Assembly (NCBI GenBank): GCA_026770025.1
Contig: JAMXDE010000047.1
Coordinates: 186,001 to 250,000 of the forward strand
Direction of reading: 5' to 3'
DNA: 64,000 nt
Source: Craspedostauros australis
Lineage: Eukaryota > Bacillariophyta > Bacillariophyceae > Mastogloiales > Achnanthaceae
The notes under the pieces are model-generated. The model was given only the letters and a program-made list of their open reading frames with translations, did not search any database and was not told the DNA's origin. This document shows positions 26,440 to 36,670 of the stretch, in pieces; position 1 is the stretch's first letter, and each line of letters starts with the position of its first letter. Position numbers and translations under genes: made by a program.

Positions 26440-28315
26440 ATCCGATGCCAAACACAGGGTGGGGAGAGAAGTACCCCAGTGCGAAATGTACAATACCATA
26501 CATGCAATACGAGTACATACTTATGTCCATAGTTCGAGTCCATCACAGTATTCTCTGGTGTAAATAAGGCCGGGAGATGCATTGATATCCACACAAGGTA
26601 GTCACGGGCATGGCATGTTACGGTATGGATTATGGAACTCATCATCATCGTTGTCGTCACGGAGAACTCTGGTCTGTCTCTATTCCGTCTTCTAGCTTTA
26701 ACCGTAGCCTGTCCAACGTTCCAATCAACACTCTATCAGTTTGTCTGATACTTGGGACGTGTTGAAAACGATTTGAAGGACGGATTTATGCAAAACACAG
26801 ACGCACGCTTCAACTCGTGACATACGTGATATACGGCAATATACCTATAATATGTAATATTGATGGATGGAGTTGTATCGACATTTCAGAAACCCCATGT
26901 CACATCCATGTCGTGTACGAAACGGAAGCGAAGAAACGATAGTACCGCTTCAAGGAATTGGGACTATTGCAGTACGATTGACAAACACGGATATACACGT
27001 CGGCAGGTAATGATCCAAAGTGTTTTCTGGATGGTGACGCAACGGCTGTCACAAGACAGATTCGAGATCGTGGTTCAAGGTTTGAGCAATTATGAGTGAT
27101 AAGCGAGACCCATTCGTGATGTTTCGTTGGTCATGTCCAGTCTTTGCTAGTGACAAGAATTGTTGAAAGTGTTTTTTGTGTCATCCAATGCCCGATTATG
27201 TCTGTTCGTGAATTTTGGGTCGCTGCGAGCCGCACGCGTACTTGTTAGTACGGAGATGCGGAGCTTTTGGGCATCACGCGAAAGGAGTTGGTACCAGAAA
27301 CGGCGGCTTCTGGCGCTCATGCGGATGCGAACATGACGCCGCCAGGGAGAGAGAAATGGGGGAGAAAGACACCCAACCGAATAGCTGTTGTACCGGAGAC
27401 GATGAAGCATGTTTGGTTTTGTGAGCTCCGTTGTGTCGAATCCGTTGCGGCTTGTCTGTGTGTCCACACGTGCCTGGAGAAGGGGGAAGAGCTCTTGTGT
27501 CTCTCGCAGATGCAAGCCGCGCTGCGAAATCACTGTTTGGCACAGAGGTACAGAGACACGCAGAGCAGAACCAAGATAGCGCATGAACACGGGGCAGGAT
27601 GAGAGGAAGAGAAACCGAAACACGGTGAAGCAGAGCAGAACAGAGCAAGACAGCGTGGACGAGTGCGCGCGTCCACGCACACATTGGCGCCACCGAGAAA
27701 CACGACAGCGCATAACAGTGCACGCACACACGAGCAAACAAGTGCCCACGAAGCCACGTGATCCCTCGTGGAGTGAAGATCGCATCTGTGGATCGTCGCA
27801 TACAATCAGCCACGGAATCAAGTTCTACCCTGATTGTACTTCACATCGAGCATTATAGACGCACAACGATACTTGTTGTAGCGTATCCATCGACATTGCC
27901 ATCACAGCAGCATCAAAGCAGAGCATCTCCATCGACATTGAGCGTGTTGGTTGGAAGAGAGCGAAAAAGAGCACCAAGAAGCATCAAAAGTCGTGGTAAC
28001 CGGCGACTCCTGAATTGATCAGAAACGTCTGTCTGAGGCTGTGCATTGGGACCTGTGACGAGATCAGCATTGAGGTTGAGATCGAGATTGAGGCTGAGGT
28101 TGGCACAAGAGCAGAGACACAATACCAATAGGAGCATTACAAGCACGAGGTTGCTCTCTGTCTGGCATCCAGAACTCCCACTCAAGGCAACTCGGTTTGA
28201 CTCCACGGCGGCCGTGCTTGCACCTGTCTCAGTCCCATTTCCATACTGCTCCGCCACATCGAAGCACCAATCAAGCACCATTGCATACTCCAAGTTGTTT
28301 ACTATTCTATTATAT
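26440..28315. other. Intergenic, no gene seen
   Basis: 1.9 kb between two plus-strand genes. Overlapping ORFs at 27147-27821 on minus have no recognisable domain. The open frame from 28046 to 28345 upstream of the next gene has no ATG and is treated as untranslated. Confidence 0.45.
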
Positions 28316-28323
28316 TATATAAG
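28316..28323 (+). promoter_or_regulatory. TATA-box-like element close to the start codon
   Basis: TATATAAG sits 22 bases before the ATG at 28346. If it positions transcription in the usual way (25-30 bases downstream) the mRNA would start almost at the ATG. It may instead be ordinary AT-rich leader. Confidence 0.35.
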
Positions 28324-28345
28324 TTGTTTGGAAGAGCACAGAACC

Positions 28346-30115
28346 ATGCCGGGACCACGCATCACAGCGCAGCAACTGGAGCAGCACCAGCGACATCGGT
28401 TGCTGAGGCAGATCATGAAGGGTGATAGCAGCGGCAGTGGTGCCAAGGATGGCGCCAACGACAGTGTCAAGACCAGCAAGAACAAGAACAAGGGGAGCAG
28501 CAGCAGCAAGAACAAGAACAATGGAACCAGCAGCAAGGGAACCAGCAAGGGAACTAGCAAGGGGAGAGAGAAGAGGGTGGGCCTGGGAGCATGGCTGAAG
28601 AAGAACAACATGTCGGGAAGCATGAACATTGGCATCAGCATGATGAGCAAGGGAAGTCGCAGCGACCACACCAGCGGCTACACGAAGGGAGGCGGTAACA
28701 GCAAGGGCAGTATTGGCAACAGCAGCAGGTACGGCTCTGCTTCCACGAGAGACAGCTGCAACAAGTCCGTCTCTTCGAGCAGAACAGCCAAGACGGTCGC
28801 ATCCACGGAGGAATCCAGCTTCTCAGTTTCGGAACTCGCAGGACCCTCGACGGCGCCATCCACTCCTTCGGCGCTCTCCACCCTGTCCACCCATTCATTG
28901 CCACCTCTGTCTGCCTCCAAGAATGTCACCCCAGGCAGCAGCAGCAAGCGACGCACGAACAACCACAACCACAATGACACCCACAATGAGAACATCAACG
29001 TGAGCGTGAGCGTGAGTCTGCATGACGCTGTGAATGTTGATGTGAGCTCCAATGTGAATGGTAGCAACAGCAACAACAACCAAAGAAGAAGGCACAAGAA
29101 CGTTCGCTTCCATTCCGATCGCAACCTGGTGTCCGTGCGGCGCATCGCCGGCCTCGACTCCTACAGCAACGACGAATGGGGCGCCTGCTTCTACTCGCGG
29201 CCTGAGTTCGACGCCATCACCCAGAAGGCCCACAAGGTCATCGCCAAGTACACCAAGCAGTTCCACAAGGCCAAGCAGACGGACGGCCGCCGCAGGAGCA
29301 ACGAATCGGGCGACGACGGCATCCCCACCACGGACCCCTCCTCCCTCTTCAACTACACCAGCAGCAACAAGAAGCTCTGCATCCGCGGCCTAGAGAAGTT
29401 CTTCACGCAGCGACAGAACGAGGTGGACGACATCCGCATCAAGGCCATCGACATCGTCATGGACATCCAGGACGAGCAGTGGCAGTGGGGCCATGACGAT
29501 GGCAACGAGCAGATCGCCAAGCAGTACCATCAATGCACCAAGCACTGCTTGCTGCAGGCGCAGGAGCGGGCGAATCATGATGCCCGGGCCATCCAGAAGT
29601 ACATCAAGAGGAGCAGGAGTCGCAGCATGGACAGGATCCAACATCAGGATCCAGCCAACGATGCGCCTGCCAAACCGCTGCATCTCTTCATGGAACAGCA
29701 GACCTCCTCCCTGGTTCCCACCGATGATGATGAGGACACCATCGTCACGGCGGAGTCGGACCTCCTGGACACCGTCCCCTTGCACAGACCCCTCGCAGAC
29801 GTGCGCGATCCCACGCGACGCCGGCGACCCCAGCTGCCACAGCAGGCCAAGCTCATCGCGATGCAGCGACGCCTCTCGGAAGAGATCGAACGCTTCGATC
29901 CCAACCTCCTGCTTGCAACGAAGGATGACTGCGCACGCGACGCGGCTCCACGTGCCCGCCGCAATGCGGTCGTCGTGCTCACCAAGAGCGAGATGAAGCG
30001 ATCCATGGCGCCGGGGCAGGTCAAGATCACCAAGGATGTCAGACGCAATCTGTCGCAGCAGATCGTGCAGTTCGATGCCAAGAAGTTGAAGCAGATGGTG
30101 CGATCCAATCAGTGA
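28346..30115 (+). CDS. RGLE-block protein of a diatom-type family, unknown function
   Basis: 589 residues from the ATG at 28346 (MPGPRITAQQLEQ); the frame is open further up but lacks ATG. Residues about 30-250 are a basic, Ser/Lys/Gly/Asn-rich spacer (KNKNKGSSSSKNKN). The conserved block starts near 250: KNVRFHSDRNLVSVRRI, YSNDEWGACFYSRPEFDAI, then CIRGLEKFFTQRQNEV, AIDIVMDIQDEQWQWG and IAKQYHQCTKHCLLQAQERA. The order VRF ... Y-x3-E/W ... RGLE ... Q..Q ... IA..Y is one I know from many diatom proteins with no assigned role. The C-terminus is Arg/Gln-rich with two LSxxIxxFDxxxL-like repeats (EEIERFDPNLL and QQIVQFDAKKLKQ). No catalytic motif is seen. Confidence 0.8.
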   Translation: MPGPRITAQQLEQHQRHRLLRQIMKGDSSGSGAKDGANDSVKTSKNKNKGSSSSKNKNNGTSSKGTSKGTSKGREKRVGLGAWLKKNNMSGSMNIGISMMSKGSRSDHTSGYTKGGGNSKGSIGNSSRYGSASTRDSCNKSVSSSRTAKTVASTEESSFSVSELAGPSTAPSTPSALSTLSTHSLPPLSASKNVTPGSSSKRRTNNHNHNDTHNENINVSVSVSLHDAVNVDVSSNVNGSNSNNNQRRRHKNVRFHSDRNLVSVRRIAGLDSYSNDEWGACFYSRPEFDAITQKAHKVIAKYTKQFHKAKQTDGRRRSNESGDDGIPTTDPSSLFNYTSSNKKLCIRGLEKFFTQRQNEVDDIRIKAIDIVMDIQDEQWQWGHDDGNEQIAKQYHQCTKHCLLQAQERANHDARAIQKYIKRSRSRSMDRIQHQDPANDAPAKPLHLFMEQQTSSLVPTDDDEDTIVTAESDLLDTVPLHRPLADVRDPTRRRRPQLPQQAKLIAMQRRLSEEIERFDPNLLLATKDDCARDAAPRARRNAVVVLTKSEMKRSMAPGQVKITKDVRRNLSQQIVQFDAKKLKQMVRSNQ

Positions 30116-30346
30116 ACGGGGTGTCTATCAGCGCTCATAATTGAAGAGTATGGTGGAACTTAACTTAACTGGGCTCTGCTTGGCTAAGCTTGGCTTCTTT
30201 AGAAAGAACATCGACCACACATGTCAGCATGGCACTTTGTATGAGTATGTTGGATGGCGGATAGTAGATGGTGGTTCAGATCGATGTTCTCTCCAGCGAG
30301 GCTAACTGGGAGACAGATAGGAGGTTTTGTGCAGCACACTGTGATA

Positions 30347-32569
30347 TCCACGAGGAAATTCTGTCGCGATAGAGGACCCCTGATGTCTCAGGAGACAAAC
30401 TTTTTGACCTTTGTGCGAGGACCTTGTCTCCTGAGACAAAACCAAAAATAACACGACGTTTCCTCGCGATGGGAAAAGTGGTCGACCAGTTGGACTAAAA
30501 CTAGAATTGGACACTCGTCTCGTCACACATTTTCTTCGTGTATTTTCTTCGTACATTTTTGTTGTCCACGTTTTCACGTAGTAATGGCGTAGTTTCGGAC
30601 ACTCGGTAGGTGTTGTCGTTGTTTGCATTCAATATAAAGTTGCTTGCTCTCTAATTTTAAGCAATGCTATTGCGAATAACACACTGGCGACTACCATAAC
30701 AAGAATAACACAGAGATTAAACCCACTTATGAGGCTGCGCTGGTGGCGCTATTCTCCGTCTCCTTTCAACTTCGTGCGGGGCACGAAGGGAGCACGGAAT
30801 CTATGCTTTGTGTGTGTATGCTGTTTATGTGGTTTTCTCCTTGTGTGCTGCCAAGGGCGTCTTTGCCAGTGGGGGAGGGGGGTTGGGTGAGCTTGTTGTC
30901 TGCATTTCAGCCACTTGAGCAGGGCGCCAGAGGCGGCCGGTTTGGGTAGCGTCAGCGCGGCTTGCTCCACCCATACCATGACCTGTGCCATTCGTGCCTC
31001 GCCGACCAGCGCCGTCTGTAGTCGCCATAGATGCTTGGTTCGGTCCTGCTCGAGGTAAAGATGGAGTGATTCTGCCCTGTCATGTAGGGCTTAAACCGTC
31101 CCAGCTTCGGCCGAGTCTTGACCTTCGAACAATGTCTCATTGCGTGCTCTCCATTGCAACCAGGCATTGCGCCAAATGCAACGTATGAGCTGCCTGGACC
31201 ACTTGTCTTCCAATTTCCGAGGCTGTTGCTGCTGCAGAAATTTGCTCTGCATCGGTTCCCACTGCCTGTCTAGGAGTCCTTTTCTGAGCGCCTGTGGACC
31301 CACAGCGAACTGCTGCCAAACTGCCTCATGGAGAGAGCTGCCCAGGCTGGTAGCCCTGAGATGGACCGACCCCTCAAGCTGGCTTTGCAGGATGGCGGTC
31401 ATATTGATGGCGATTTCAGGCTTCGTGGGATATTTCCGCATCCAGTGCCGCAACTCCCATAAATGCCTCCTTGAGATTTTACGCCGGTCCTCCCCTGCGC
31501 ACTGCCAGAAGTGCAATGCATCCTCACAGTCTCTGCAACTGGGGCACTGGTCCAACACACTGGCAACTACCACTTGTTCTTCTACATCAATCCGGTGCCA
31601 CAATATCACCAGCAACTGTTTTCATTTCATTCCGTTTTCATTGCAGCTGTGGCCCTTTCCGTTCCTACTTGCTTTTGTTCTGTGGCTGTCACAGGTCTCA
31701 CACATTGCATTCATACGAATACCTTGCGCCTTGATCGATTTCTAAATCAGCGTTGTGCTCCTTTGCGGTTGGATCCAATCTCATACAACAGCGCAACTGA
31801 TTGGGAGTTTGTATTCATGCTCTTGTTGTCCAAGAGGAGGCTTCTTGTTCTATCCAAGCATATGACTGATATGTAGTGAATGATGGAGTATTGGTTTTCA
31901 ATGCAAGAGGGATGGAATGAATAGTAGCTTGCACTTGCACGGTATTGCAGAGAATATTACAGATGGTGAACTTGCCATGACGGATGGGCGCAGGCAAGCA
32001 TCAATCCTTGCGCTTGCCACAACACTGGAGAGATGGCACGAAGCTAGCAAGCGAATGGATGTGCTCTTCCAACAGAGCAGGTGCAATAATAGTCAACAAA
32101 GCAAGCAAACAGTAAGGTTGGTTTGCACAATGAACGTACCCAACAGCAGAGGGGACGAAGATACCTGACTCTTGCCCCCTCAATCCCATAGCAAGCAAGT
32201 ACAGCAACAGCTAGACAACACCATGTATATTTTGCACAAGATCTATGTCATTCATGTGCTCTGCAGTGAGTAGTTTAGTCAGATATCAACGAAGCCAACA
32301 TATGTCGGTTGATGGTCAAAAAGCACGGGAAAGTACGCAGTATTTGGCTTCCTGGTCGGAAAAGCACAGGAGACAATTTGCGGTTTTGGGTGTTGTTGTT
32401 TTTGGTTTTACTCGATTGAGTCCGCTGTCTTTCGGCTCCGTGTTAATTTACCGCACTAATTTTGAGTTTGTCTCCTGAGACAACATTCTTGGTCCACATC
32501 CGGGTGCCTTGTCTCAGGAGACAAAAAGGCCCGATTTTGTCTCCTGAGACATGAAAATTTCCTCGTGGA
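30347..32569. mobile_element. TIR element, copy 1 (2,223 bp, non-autonomous)
   Basis: Begins TCCACGAGGAAATT after a TA at 30345-30346 and ends with the inverted copy before a TA at 32570-32571. Just inside the ends are TGTCTC-NN-GAGACA palindromes: 30384-30397 and 30425-30438 on the left; 32469-32482, 32510-32523 and 32538-32551 on the right. No transposase is present; the only recognisable coding matter is a retroelement fragment at 31091-31615. The TA (or ATAT) at each border could be the target duplication, as in TA-targeting superfamilies. It is about 95% identical by eye to copy 2. Confidence 0.75.
31091..31615 (-). pseudogene. Retroelement C-terminal domain fragment inside TIR copy 1
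   Basis: 174 codons. A zinc-binding-like CPSC-x6-HFWQC segment is followed by TKPEIAINMTAIL, AVWQQFAVGPQAL, QWEPMQSKFLQQQ, DKWSRQLIRCIWRNAWLQW and RARNETLFEG. This order (CPxC..H..C, then Q..IGW/GP, W..Q, W...L...W, W..RN..L.G) is what I know from the C-terminal part of diatom reverse-transcriptase-like ORFs. No polymerase motif is present and an in-frame stop lies just before the segment. After the terminal TAA the same frame continues with related-looking sequence (LEQDRTKHLWRLQ), so the fragment is broken. Confidence 0.5.
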
Positions 32570-32585
32570 TATCCACGAGGAAATT
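32556..32585. repeat. Perfect 30-bp palindrome at the junction of the two TIR copies
   Basis: The right end of copy 1 and the left end of copy 2 share one central GATATC, forming a perfect inverted repeat centred at 32570/32571. It is expected if the second copy inserted at the TA flanking the first and the TA is shared. Confidence 0.9.
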
Positions 32586-34803
32586 CTGTCGCGATAGAGG
32601 ACCCCTGATGTCTCAGGAGACAAACTTTTTGACCTTTGTGCGAGGGCCTTGTCTCCTGAGACAAAACCAAAAATAACACGACGTTTCCTCGCGATGGGCA
32701 AAGTGGTCGACCAGTTGGACTAAAACTAGAATTGGACACTCGTCTCGTCACACATTTTCTTCGTGTATTTTCTTCGTACTTTTTTGTTGTCCACGTTTTC
32801 ACGTAGTAATGGCGTAGTTTCGGACACTCGGTAGGTGTTGTCGTAGTTTGCATTGAATATAAAGTTAATTGCTCTCTATTTTTATGCAATACCATTGCTA
32901 ATAACACACTGGCAACTACCATAATAAGAATAACACAGAGATTAAACCCACTTATGAGGCTGCGCTGGTGGCGCTATTCTCCGCCTCCTTTCGACTTCGT
33001 GCGGAGCACGAAAGGAGCACGGAATCTATGCTTTGTGTGTGTATACTGTGTATGTGTTTTCTCCTTGCGTGCTGCCAAGGGTATCTTTGCCAGTGGGGGA
33101 GGGGGGTTGGGTGAGCTTGTTGTCTGCATTTCAGCCACTTGAGCAGGGCGCCAGAGGCGGCCGGTTTGTGTAGCGTCAGCACGGCTTGCTCCACCCATAC
33201 CGTGACCTGTGCCATCTGTGCCTCGCCGGCCAGCACCATATGTAGCTGTCATAGATGCTTGGTGCGGTCCTGCTCAAGGCAAAGACGGAGTGATTCTGCC
33301 CTGTCATGTAGGGCTTACACTGTCCCAGCTTCGGCCAAGTCTTGACCTTCGAACAATGTCTCGTTGCGTGCTCTCCATTGCTCCCAGGCATTGCGCCAAA
33401 TGCAATGTATGAGTTGCCTGGACCACTTGTCTTCCAATTTCCGAGGCTGTTGCTGCTGCAGAAATTTGCTCTGCATCGGTTCCCACTTCCTGTCTAGGAG
33501 TCCTTTTCCGAGCGCCTGTGGACCCACAGCAAACTGCTGCCAAACTGCCTCATGGAGAGAGCTGCCCAGGCTGGTAGCCCTGAGATGGACCGACCCCTCA
33601 AGCTGGCTTTGCAGGATGGCGGTCATATTGATGGCGATTTCAGGCTTCGTGGGATATCTCCGCATCCAGCGCCGCAACTCCCATAAATGCCTCCTCGAGA
33701 TTTTACACCAGTCCTCCCCTGTGCACTGCCAGAAGTGCGACGCATCCTCACAGTCTCTGCAACTGGGGCATTGGTCCAACACACTGGCAACTACCACTTG
33801 TTCTTCTACATCAATCCAGTGCCACAATATCACCAGCAACTGCTTTCATTTCGTTACATTTTCATTGCAGCTGTGGCCCTTTCCGTTCCTACTTGCTTTT
33901 GTTCTGTGGCTGTCGCAGGTCTCACACATTGCGTCAACACTGCATTTATACAAATACCTTGCGCCTTGATTGATTTCTGAATCAGTGTTACACTCCTTTG
34001 CAGTTGGATCCAATCTCATACAACGGCGCAACTGATTGGGAGTTTGTATTCATGCTCTTGTCGTCCAAGAGGAGGCTTCTTGTTCTACCCAAGCATATGA
34101 CTGATATGTAGTGAATGATGGAGTATTGGTTTTCCATGCAAGAGGGATGGAATGAATAGTAGCTTGCGCTTGCACGGTATTGCGGAGAATATTACAGATG
34201 GTGAACTTGCCATGATGGATGGGTGCAGACAAGCATCAATCCTTGCACTCGCCACAACACTAGAGAGATGGGATGAAGCAAGCAAGCGAATGGATGTGCC
34301 CTTCCAACAGAGCAGGTGCAATAATAGTCAACAAAGCAAGCAAACAGTAAGGTTGGTTTGCACGATGAACGTACACAACAGCAGAGGGGACGAAGATACC
34401 TGACTCTTGCCCCCTCAATCCCATAGCAAGCAAGTACAGCAACAGCTAGACAACACCATGCATATTTTACACAAGAACTATGTCATTCATGTGCTCTGCA
34501 GTGAGTTGTTTAGTCAGATATCAACGAAGCCAACATATCACTGCTGATGGTAAAAAAGCACAGGAAAGTATGCAGTATTTGGGTTCCTGGTCGGAAAAGC
34601 ACAGGAGACAATTGCGGTTTTGGGTGTTGCTGTTTTTGGTTTTACTCGATTGAGTCTGCTGTCTTTCTGCTCCGTGTTAATTTACCACACTAATTTTGAG
34701 TTTGTCTCCTGAGACAACAATCTTGGTCCACATCCGGGTGCCTTGTCTCAGGAGACAAAAAGGCCCGATTTTGTCTCCTGAGACATGAAAATTTCCTCGT
34801 GGA
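32572..34803. mobile_element. TIR element, copy 2 (2,232 bp, non-autonomous)
   Basis: Same ends and subterminal palindromes as copy 1: 32609-32622 and 32650-32663 on the left; 34703-34716, 34744-34757 and 34772-34785 on the right. The right border is followed by TA at 34804-34805. It differs from copy 1 by scattered substitutions and by small indels, including about 9 bases extra near 33935. It carries the same retroelement fragment and the same stop. Confidence 0.75.
33315..33839 (-). pseudogene. Retroelement C-terminal domain fragment inside TIR copy 2
   Basis: 174 codons matching the fragment at 31091-31615 residue by residue with about a dozen changes (for example ALRKGLLDRQW becomes ALGKGLLDRKW). 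It ends in TAA at the same position. The shared lesion indicates that the fragment was already dead when the element multiplied. Confidence 0.5.
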
Positions 34804-34880
34804 TATGCAAAGCAAGCAGGGACAGCTCAAACAGACACCACAATGAATACCCACGCGGATGAACAACTCTAGTGGCTATT

Positions 34881-36670
34881 GGCTAATTTCCGGTTTTTTG
34901 GTAATTATTGGTAATTATTGGTAACCATTGGCATATCGCCGACGGCACAAGCAACCATTCGATGAGTTGATGCCCGTTGCCTGACATCTTTACATTATTA
35001 GAAAGAAGAGAGTGAGAGCTCTCTGTTGATGTGTTCATTGTAGGCAAACGGTCTCCGCTTCATGTTCATCTCGATGCCTCTTTTTACCCTTTATCGGCCT
35101 TTTTCGTACGGACGACGTACGGACGTGATTTTGGTATTTTTTCGTTGGTAACCATTGGTAACCGCGTAGAGTCTACGACGTTCTGGTACATAAATTTGTT
35201 GCTTCTTCGTCCAATCTCGACCGACTGCCTTCCAAAGACCCGCATCCAATTCTGTTTCGTCTATTGGTCAAGTGAATGACATGGCTGTATTCGTCACTTC
35301 ATTCTGCTTCGGGTGATGTGTTGTTCAGCGGTCCAGGATGCCTTTGTGTGTTGCTTTGGGTGTTTGAAGTTAGTCACTAATGCTCGTGACAGCCATGATC
35401 ATCAATCCGTGAACGCACAAAAGTTCGCGCCAAAAAATTATCGTGCGTTTCTACGTGTTGTTGATTCGAACTGTTTGGCTCGCATGAGTCTCTTTACTTG
35501 ATGCAAGGTTGTGCATCGCGCTGATGTCGGATCATCGTGCTGTTGCTTTCAGTTGACGCAGAATCCTCTCTTGCACCTGCCCATGTAGTCTTGGTCTTCG
35601 AATCTCACTTCCTCCAAAGATTTACCAACTGCAAGTTCATCTCGTCGCTTTACTGCGTACTATCCTTGCGAGGAAACACTGCTTCCTGATCACGCGCCAC
35701 AAGTATCTTCATTGACACCGGTTGCTACGCTCATGCAATGGGCAGGGTCGTTGACACAGTCACTGCTCGTGCTCTATCAAACCGCGTTCGAACCGTTCTG
35801 TGCAGGTAGCCTGATGTTCTATACTGATCTCCAGCACAACTATGGCCAATCGAACACTGGCCTCTACATTGCGCACATGACACATGCTAAAATGCGCGCA
35901 CATGGCGTGGAAATTCTGCGCGGCGCAGTTGCACATGCTCAGCGATGCGGAAGATCCAAAGAAGAGCGATCAGAGCATGGCGAGATTGGACTCCTCAGTG
36001 TGAAACAGTCGACTCTGCTCTATTCTGGACTGCTATTGTGTGCTGCTGCTAACCAAGGGATCATTGCTCTCCCAAGCAGGATGGATGCAACAATACACAT
36101 GCATCAAAGTTGCTGTTGCCAAGACGGTTGCTGGTGTACGGTATTCTGGAGTAGAACTAAAATGCTATTGTAGAAAGTATCAACCATATCATCAACTACA
36201 ATGCAATACGATGAACGAAGTCGCAATGGATGATATCAGGATATAAGGAACTGATCATAGTATGTGAAGAACACATCGGTTGGCACCACAATGTTTTGTG
36301 ATCATTTCCACTGCGTGTTAACACGCGCTGGGGCACACAGAAATTCTCCACGATACATCGCGGTGATTGTCATTCGTGAATGGGATCAACGAGTGCCTGC
36401 TCCAAAGAAACAAACAGATCTCGACCACTACCCAACCAATCGCCGCCAAACTTGGAGAGGGTGATTAAAAGCCACACATGCGAATGCTCACAAAAGGAGA
36501 GCTCAAACAAATGGAGCGGCATGAACTTGCCGAGGAGGTTTGTGGCAGAAAAGGTGTTTGTTGGGCGGCTTCGAGTGGGACTGACGTACAAAATGTACCA
36601 GCGTCTACGGAGAAATTGACTCATACGACTAGTTACCAATTGTTACCAATGGTAACCAAAAAAATTGGCC
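34881..36670. mobile_element. Possible second inverted-repeat element with TTGGTAACC arrays
   Basis: The left edge (34881-34932) reads GGCTAATTT, a T-run, then three TTGGTAA units; the right edge (36631-36670) is the imperfect inverse (GTTACCAAT units, an A-run, AAATTGGCC). A further double TTGGTAACCA lies at about 35144-35163. The inside has only short ORFs, the longest 35712-36173 plus (153 codons), with no recognised domain. No target duplication is visible, so this could be a repeat cluster and not a mobile element. Confidence 0.35.

Follow-up and report, generated by a model that had tools for sequence, protein, structure and literature searches.

The 64-kb window analyzed here, a stretch of Craspedostauros australis DNA, contains at positions 30344–34806 two terminal-inverted-repeat (TIR) elements of ~2.2 kb joined at one ATAT. 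We interpret these two copies, A and B, as non-autonomous cut-and-paste elements that target ATAT and whose transposase would be provided in trans by full-length relatives, as a predicted protein combining DDE, nuclease and Cys/His parts. We put the probability of this reading at about 0.8. The genome searched was the 74.8-Mb assembly of 90 contigs, in which the window lies on the contig labeled C45; other places are cited in the same labeling. Its intron-bearing genes point to a eukaryote, and PSxxPS repeats in a protein next to one of the loci suggest a diatom.

Two elements joined at a single ATAT

With the ATAT counted at both ends, copy A is 2,229 bp long and copy B 2,238 bp. Copy A occupies 30347–32569 (+) when its border is read as TA, and copy B 32572–34803 (+). 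All four ends carry the 14-bp TIR TCCACGAGGAAATT, on the plus strand at the left (30347–30360 in A, 32572–32585 in B) and inverted, on the minus strand, at the right (32556–32569 in A, 34790–34803 in B). ATAT is present at the left border of A (30344–30347), between the copies (32569–32572) and at the right border of B (34803–34806), and the central one is the midpoint of a perfect 30-bp palindrome (32556–32585). Both the pair of back-to-back 2.2-kb TIR elements and the junction palindrome had been proposed in an earlier, sequence-only reading of this DNA and are confirmed.

Each copy also contains five palindromes of the form TGTCTC-NN-GAGACA, two at the left and three at the right, with central dinucleotides alternating between AG and CT, exactly as that reading had described them. 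Counted from the nearer border ATAT to the palindrome center, the distances are 47 and 88 bp on the left side and 28, 56 and 97 bp on the right. In copy A these are L1 (AG center, 30384–30397), L2 (CT center, 30425–30438), R3 (32469–32482), R2 (32510–32523) and R1 (32538–32551), and in copy B L1 (32609–32622), L2 (32650–32663), R3 (34703–34716), R2 (34744–34757) and R1 (34772–34785). When up to one mismatch was allowed, TGTCTCNNGAGACA was found 10 times in the window, always in its perfect form and always inside the two copies, compared with 0.36 occurrences expected from dinucleotide shuffles. Genome-wide there are 83 perfect sites versus 1 for the reversed control pattern; some of these perfect sites have other central dinucleotides and lie singly.

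Other copies and the separate origin of A and B

A genome search, which the sequence-only reading had proposed, returned other copies with the same borders; copies with non-coinciding ends would, by that reading, have refuted it. The left end gave 23 matches, 16 of them at ≥94% identity over at least 146 of 156 bp; the remainder comprised two pieces of one split copy and five matches at 70–73%. The right end gave 29 matches, of which 14 were at ≥95% (the one on C50 over 136 of 192 bp), one was at 70% and 14 were short self-palindrome matches. Eleven near-full copies were aligned, seven of ~2.2 kb (including A and B) and four of ~1.9 kb with a partly different interior. ATAT and TIR are intact at both ends in 10 of the 11, the copy on C3 being without its left end. 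The palindromes occupy the same end offsets throughout, with one perfect site missing from each of the C3 and C34a copies.

Copy A is 99.5% identical to the copy that starts at C5:573845 and 95.1% identical to B, and the nearest aligned copy to B is C11:913859 (96.6%). Since A is closer to the C5 copy than to B, the two are independent insertions. The earlier proposal that one copy had inserted into the TA beside another is supported, the duplicated site being the place of insertion.

Two further observations concern copies elsewhere. The copies at C77:6824–9031 and C29:11150–13355 agree in 100.0% of aligned bases (2,210 and 2,208 bp) and share their flanks, so they represent one insertion that was duplicated within a larger segment rather than two insertions. 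On C11 (1526405–1537987), a 2.2-kb copy is split by an insertion of ~9.3 kb, perhaps a retroelement, in which there is an open frame of 2,448 aa. The resulting 11.6-kb gap between element ends was considered as a long coding element and rejected, as it is this split copy.

Target site

The base preceding TATCC is A in 36 of 36 distinct end sequences; the next six positions outward are variable. This count covers the loci examined, with ends of the family of A and B (F1) and of a second family (family B) and with both sides of shared junctions; ends with a TIR too mutated to fit the pattern, e.g. the C7 copy and the left end of the C3 copy, are not counted. Because ATAT is invariant at these ends, the border is better named ATAT than TA; the sequence-only reading had given TA (or ATAT) as the flank at all three borders of the pair.

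Empty sites were sought by joining the flanks of a copy around one ATAT and searching the genome. For a copy on C11, the joined flanks matched 16 genomic places at 90–93% over positions 1–404 of 404, and 21 more at 66–70%, mostly over part of the query; two were the copy's own flanks. Eight of the 16 paralogous sites were read, giving ATAT in five, GTAT in two and GTAG in one, and TTAA in none. For the copy on C34, one place matched at 99% over 339 of 339 bp. In this empty-site check, which the sequence-only reading had suggested, the paralogous sites carry the target tetranucleotide once. A 2-bp AT target was rejected because the empty sites match the joined flanks over their full length with one tetranucleotide and the A/B junction also has a single ATAT. 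The target-site duplication is TA within an ATAT site, or ATAT itself; both fit the data equally.

A coding relative and its families

Copies A and B encode no transposase match, in agreement with the sequence-only reading, and the probable transposase is encoded instead by longer relatives, a search for which had also been recommended. On contig C50, F1 ends lie 5.23 kb apart. By blastn, copy A and this C50 copy have in common only the terminal 168 bp (30344–30511, +, 96.4%) and 137 bp (32436–32572, +, 94.9%), which hold all five palindromes. The C50 copy has three long open frames of 387, 706 and 451 aa that two predicted GT–AG introns would join to encode a single protein; this has 1,445 codons counted from the first open codon, with the first Met at 27. 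In the genome, tblastn gave 88 matches for open reading frame 2 (ORF2) and 97 for ORF3, numbers that refer to match pieces and not to genes.

Eight families with protein identities of 28–55% were assembled (F1, B, K, J, D, Fm, G and M), the sequence of family M being taken without its first exon. Predicted intron 1 is at the same place and in the same phase in seven of seven families, and predicted intron 2 in eight of eight. Several splice pairs fit each intron by frame, and those chosen give conserved protein at the junction, so the two introns are a prediction from sequence. In all seven families where both introns are covered, splicing is predicted to give a single frame, which in family B contains one in-frame stop. 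More distant relatives of ORF3, at 26–27% identity, are located at C2:37688, C62:97900, C17:102677, C40:10050 and C16:1387685. All five contain 6–9 internal TGA codons and no TAA or TAG, perhaps owing to CpG decay of CGA or to something else.

Domains of the predicted transposase

The spliced region spanning D360–D437 was compared with Pfam in six of the eight families (F1, K, J, D, Fm and G). DDE_Tnp_1 (PF01609) exceeded the Pfam cut-off of 23 bits in two of the six, Fm (27.1 bits, E = 4.1e-6) and G (25.2 bits, E = 1.6e-5). It was the only Pfam model to pass its cut-off, and D437 is invariant in 8/8 families and D360–362 in 7/7. In a genome search the same model gave 71 matches, three of which (on C4, C14 and C55, ~23 bits) coincide with copies of the elements described here.

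The region between the second conserved Asp and a GGSD motif resembles a nuclease. Weak matches of PD-(D/E)XK type, all below cut-off, were obtained in families J, K, G and M: the TIGR03033 lambda-exonuclease model (0.0015 and 0.0085 in J; 0.022 and 0.011 in K), a RecE-like PHROG (0.015 in J, 0.02 in K), Endonuc_Holl (0.13 and 0.021 in G), UPF0102 (0.1 in G) and PDDEXK_4 (0.17 in M). These models belong to the PD-(D/E)XK fold. The matches suggest a PD-(D/E)XK nuclease domain, for which D907, E927, K929, E977 and Q980, invariant in all eight families, are candidate residues. The same region also matches models of other types (BipA_C, Imm49 and NinB). At the C-terminus, a CxxC-CxxC-C...C....H motif is invariant in 8/8 families; it matches no model above cut-off and probably forms a zinc-binding domain.

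Wider searches returned no relative. None of 7,994, 7,994 and 7,996 scored candidates in the protein database reached E ≤ 0.001, the share of this lineage there being not known, and viral contigs and prokaryote genomes gave pattern matches and no relative. In the PDB the best match had an E of 0.52, and another query had none; a match at E = 0.016 to a designed helical fusion protein lies outside the motifs and was judged not credible. No description of such an element was found in the literature, Repbase and most subscription journals lying outside that search.

Conserved geometry of the palindromic sites

The positions of the sites were compared in three of the eight families, F1 (read from A, B and the C50 copy), B and D; the DNA examined around the copies of families K and J did not reveal their ends. 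Measured from the outer ATAT, site centers are at 47, 88/28, 56, 97 bp in F1, at 47, 87/27, 56, 97 bp in family B and at 47, 86/28, 57, 96 bp in family D, and thus agree within 2 bp while the site sequence differs. The TGTCTC-NN-GAGACA of F1 is found in family B in the same or a partly imperfect form, with 4–5 of 7 complementary pairs in the three right-hand sites, and is replaced in family D by TTGCRTC-NN-GAYGCAA or close variants with 5–6 of 7 pairs. That site number, side and spacing are kept at 47–55% protein identity when the half-sites have changed is what would be expected if a transposase binds them in a fixed geometry. The earlier suggestion that the palindromes are transposase-binding sites is in this way strengthened by their positions in three families. 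We infer that the C-terminal domain most likely binds them as a dimer, in the manner of the cysteine-rich domain of piggyBac.

Abutting copies

The arrangement of two element ends around one ATAT occurs exactly three times in the genome, on C45, C38 and C16 (reversed control, 0), and at seven more places with one mismatch. Given 46 exact element ends and an ATAT density of ~2.0 per kb (roughly 150,000 sites genome-wide), we estimate ~0.01 abutting pairs at random, with uniform ATAT use assumed, versus the three seen. This excess means that insertion beside existing ends is favored, or that such pairs are kept. On C38 (573290–573309), a second F1 copy adjoins another element at a common ATAT, and the flank on the side of this neighbor contains repeated sites like GGACTC-NN-GAGTCC; it is likely a further family of the same type. 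Around the third exact junction (C16:410758), two transposase matches lie on either side (C16:408537–413752), which suggests two coding elements back to back.

Proposed mechanism and points against it

In the mechanism that we propose, A and B retain only the cis-acting ends and would depend for their mobility on a transposase supplied in trans, that of relatives such as the 5.23-kb C50 copy. This protein would combine a DDE_Tnp_1-type catalytic domain, a PD-(D/E)XK nuclease similar to lambda exonuclease or YqaJ, and the C-terminal Cys/His domain, and the fixed, unequal 2 + 3 spacing of its binding sites would set an asymmetric end complex. Insertion at ATAT would leave the tetranucleotide on both sides. 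With ATAT restored at both edges each time, a landing site is available to any later copy, and A and B would have come to share one ATAT in this manner. The borders, the paralogous empty sites, the separate origins of A and B, the ends common with a coding copy and the conserved residues and site positions are observations; mobilization in trans, the activity and role of the nuclease and the staggering of the cuts are inferred.

Several results weigh against this interpretation. Matches to DDE_Tnp_1 are sub-threshold in F1 (0.052) and J (0.035), and there is none in K and D. The third catalytic acid has three invariant candidates, D619, E647 and D1117 (each 8/8). No nuclease model matches at its curated cut-off, and F1, Fm and D have no match of that type. 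The strict AG/CT alternation seen in F1 is not kept in families B and D. The empty sites that were read are paralogs and not true pre-insertion sites; three of the eight for the C11 copy start with G, and the one for the C34 copy reads AGAT.

A broader proposal, to which we give slightly less than an even chance, is that these elements constitute an undescribed eukaryotic superfamily with a single transposase that unites an IS4/piggyBac-like DDE domain with a PD-(D/E)XK nuclease and may cut the two DNA strands with two active sites. Such elements would target ATAT, favor the edges of their relatives and keep the 2 + 3 geometry fixed as the site sequence shifts. If correct, this would be a superfamily-level addition to the 20 superfamilies with DDD/E transposases that PMC9587614 counts in Repbase. 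It would also provide a natural test of two-nuclease excision and of the choice of a 4-bp A/T target that is not TTAA. With the same site positions in three families, binding and synapsis become open to direct tests, and the 168 and 137 bp of terminal sequence common to coding and non-coding elements offer a candidate for the minimal substrate.

Other features of the window

Both copies contain a 176-aa open frame on the minus strand (31091–31621 in A, without a Pfam match, and 33315–33845 in B). The interior of copy A at 30878–31557 is 66–69% identical to 24 non-F1 places (40 matches in all) and is probably captured repeat DNA. A 692-aa open frame at 28037–30115 (+), which matches no Pfam family above cut-off, stops 229 bp short of copy A. 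Nothing in window positions 30000–35300 reached an Rfam gathering threshold.

Alternative explanations

Among the alternatives, the most probable, although we regard it as doubtful, is a divergent piggyBac branch that gained a nuclease insert and switched to ATAT as its target in place of TTAA. The motif WNxLKGGSD, which we take to resemble the third-Asp motif of piggyBac, would fit this explanation, as would the 4-bp palindromic A/T target, the C-terminal Cys/His motif and a match to DDE_Tnp_1_7 in family J, one of the six tested (E = 0.0045, below cut-off). Palindromes unequally placed at the two ends are likewise a piggyBac feature (PMC7351741, PMC11707139). However, DDE_Tnp_1 is the better Pfam match, the target is ATAT and not TTAA, and the profile comparisons were not significant. 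With four families, all probabilities were <1% and scores were near those of the reversed control. With eight, the whole protein scored 30.2 versus 23.9 reversed (probability 1.8%), the catalytic part 24.8 versus 20.2 and the C-terminal part 22.5 versus 23.8. The piggyBac profiles came from the same genome, with four of six piggyBac loci giving a usable frame in the eight-family comparison. PF13843, the classical piggyBac domain, has 160 match pieces in this genome at E ≤ 10, many of them in long open frames, and three such loci that were checked had no TTAA-flanked TIR.

Much less probable is an element of ISL2EU/PHIS type, with a DDE transposase and a YqaJ nuclease. A YqaJ exonuclease and a short A/T target are indeed reported for ISL2EU, but there the target is A|AT|T and YqaJ occupies an ORF of its own (PMC4482050). 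Here, the target is ATAT, the parts lie in one predicted spliced protein and no Harbinger-type or THAP match is present among the Pfam results. A Tc1/mariner-type element with a TA duplication, the frame with which the sequence-only reading had compared the pair, is very improbable: the TA at each border and the short TIR would agree with it, but that TA sits within the invariant ATAT, the protein is ~1,445 aa long and the encoded proteins gave no match to a Tc1/mariner model of Pfam. Finally, a simple tandem duplication of one 2.2-kb repeat, compatible with the head-to-tail layout and named by that reading as one outcome that would refute it, is ruled out by the copy identities given above.

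Comparison with known systems

In its working parts the element is closest to piggyBac, for which unequally placed palindromes bound by a dimer of the C-terminal domain and a 4-bp A/T target are described (PMC7351741, PMC11707139). The shared features are the palindromic 4-bp A/T target and the unequal internal palindromes, and the Cys/His motif may correspond to the C-terminal Cys-rich domain of piggyBac (compare also PMC8086355). The differences are the ATAT target, the size of the protein and its nuclease-like region. The part up to the second Asp is similar to DDE_Tnp_1/IS4-type transposases, above the cut-off in two families; unlike these, the element has a eukaryotic spliced gene, extra domains and an ATAT target, and four of the six families are below the cut-off or without a match.

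Kolobok elements have TTAA duplications and 5′-RR termini, and KolobokP combines a His-Me finger nuclease with long terminal direct repeats (PMC9587614). The present element is similar to KolobokP as a DNA transposon with a putative extra nuclease, and differs from Kolobok in its ATAT target and its TCC or CC termini. In Tn7, TnsA and TnsB pair a PD-(D/E)XK nuclease with a DDE transposase; this system is bacterial and usually consists of two proteins, and its likeness to the present case is one of description and not of sequence comparison. Since the target is not TTAA, the piggyBac profile match is not significant and ISL2EU differs, we file the element in no named superfamily. We regard it as a new form of cut-and-paste transposon, perhaps at superfamily level.

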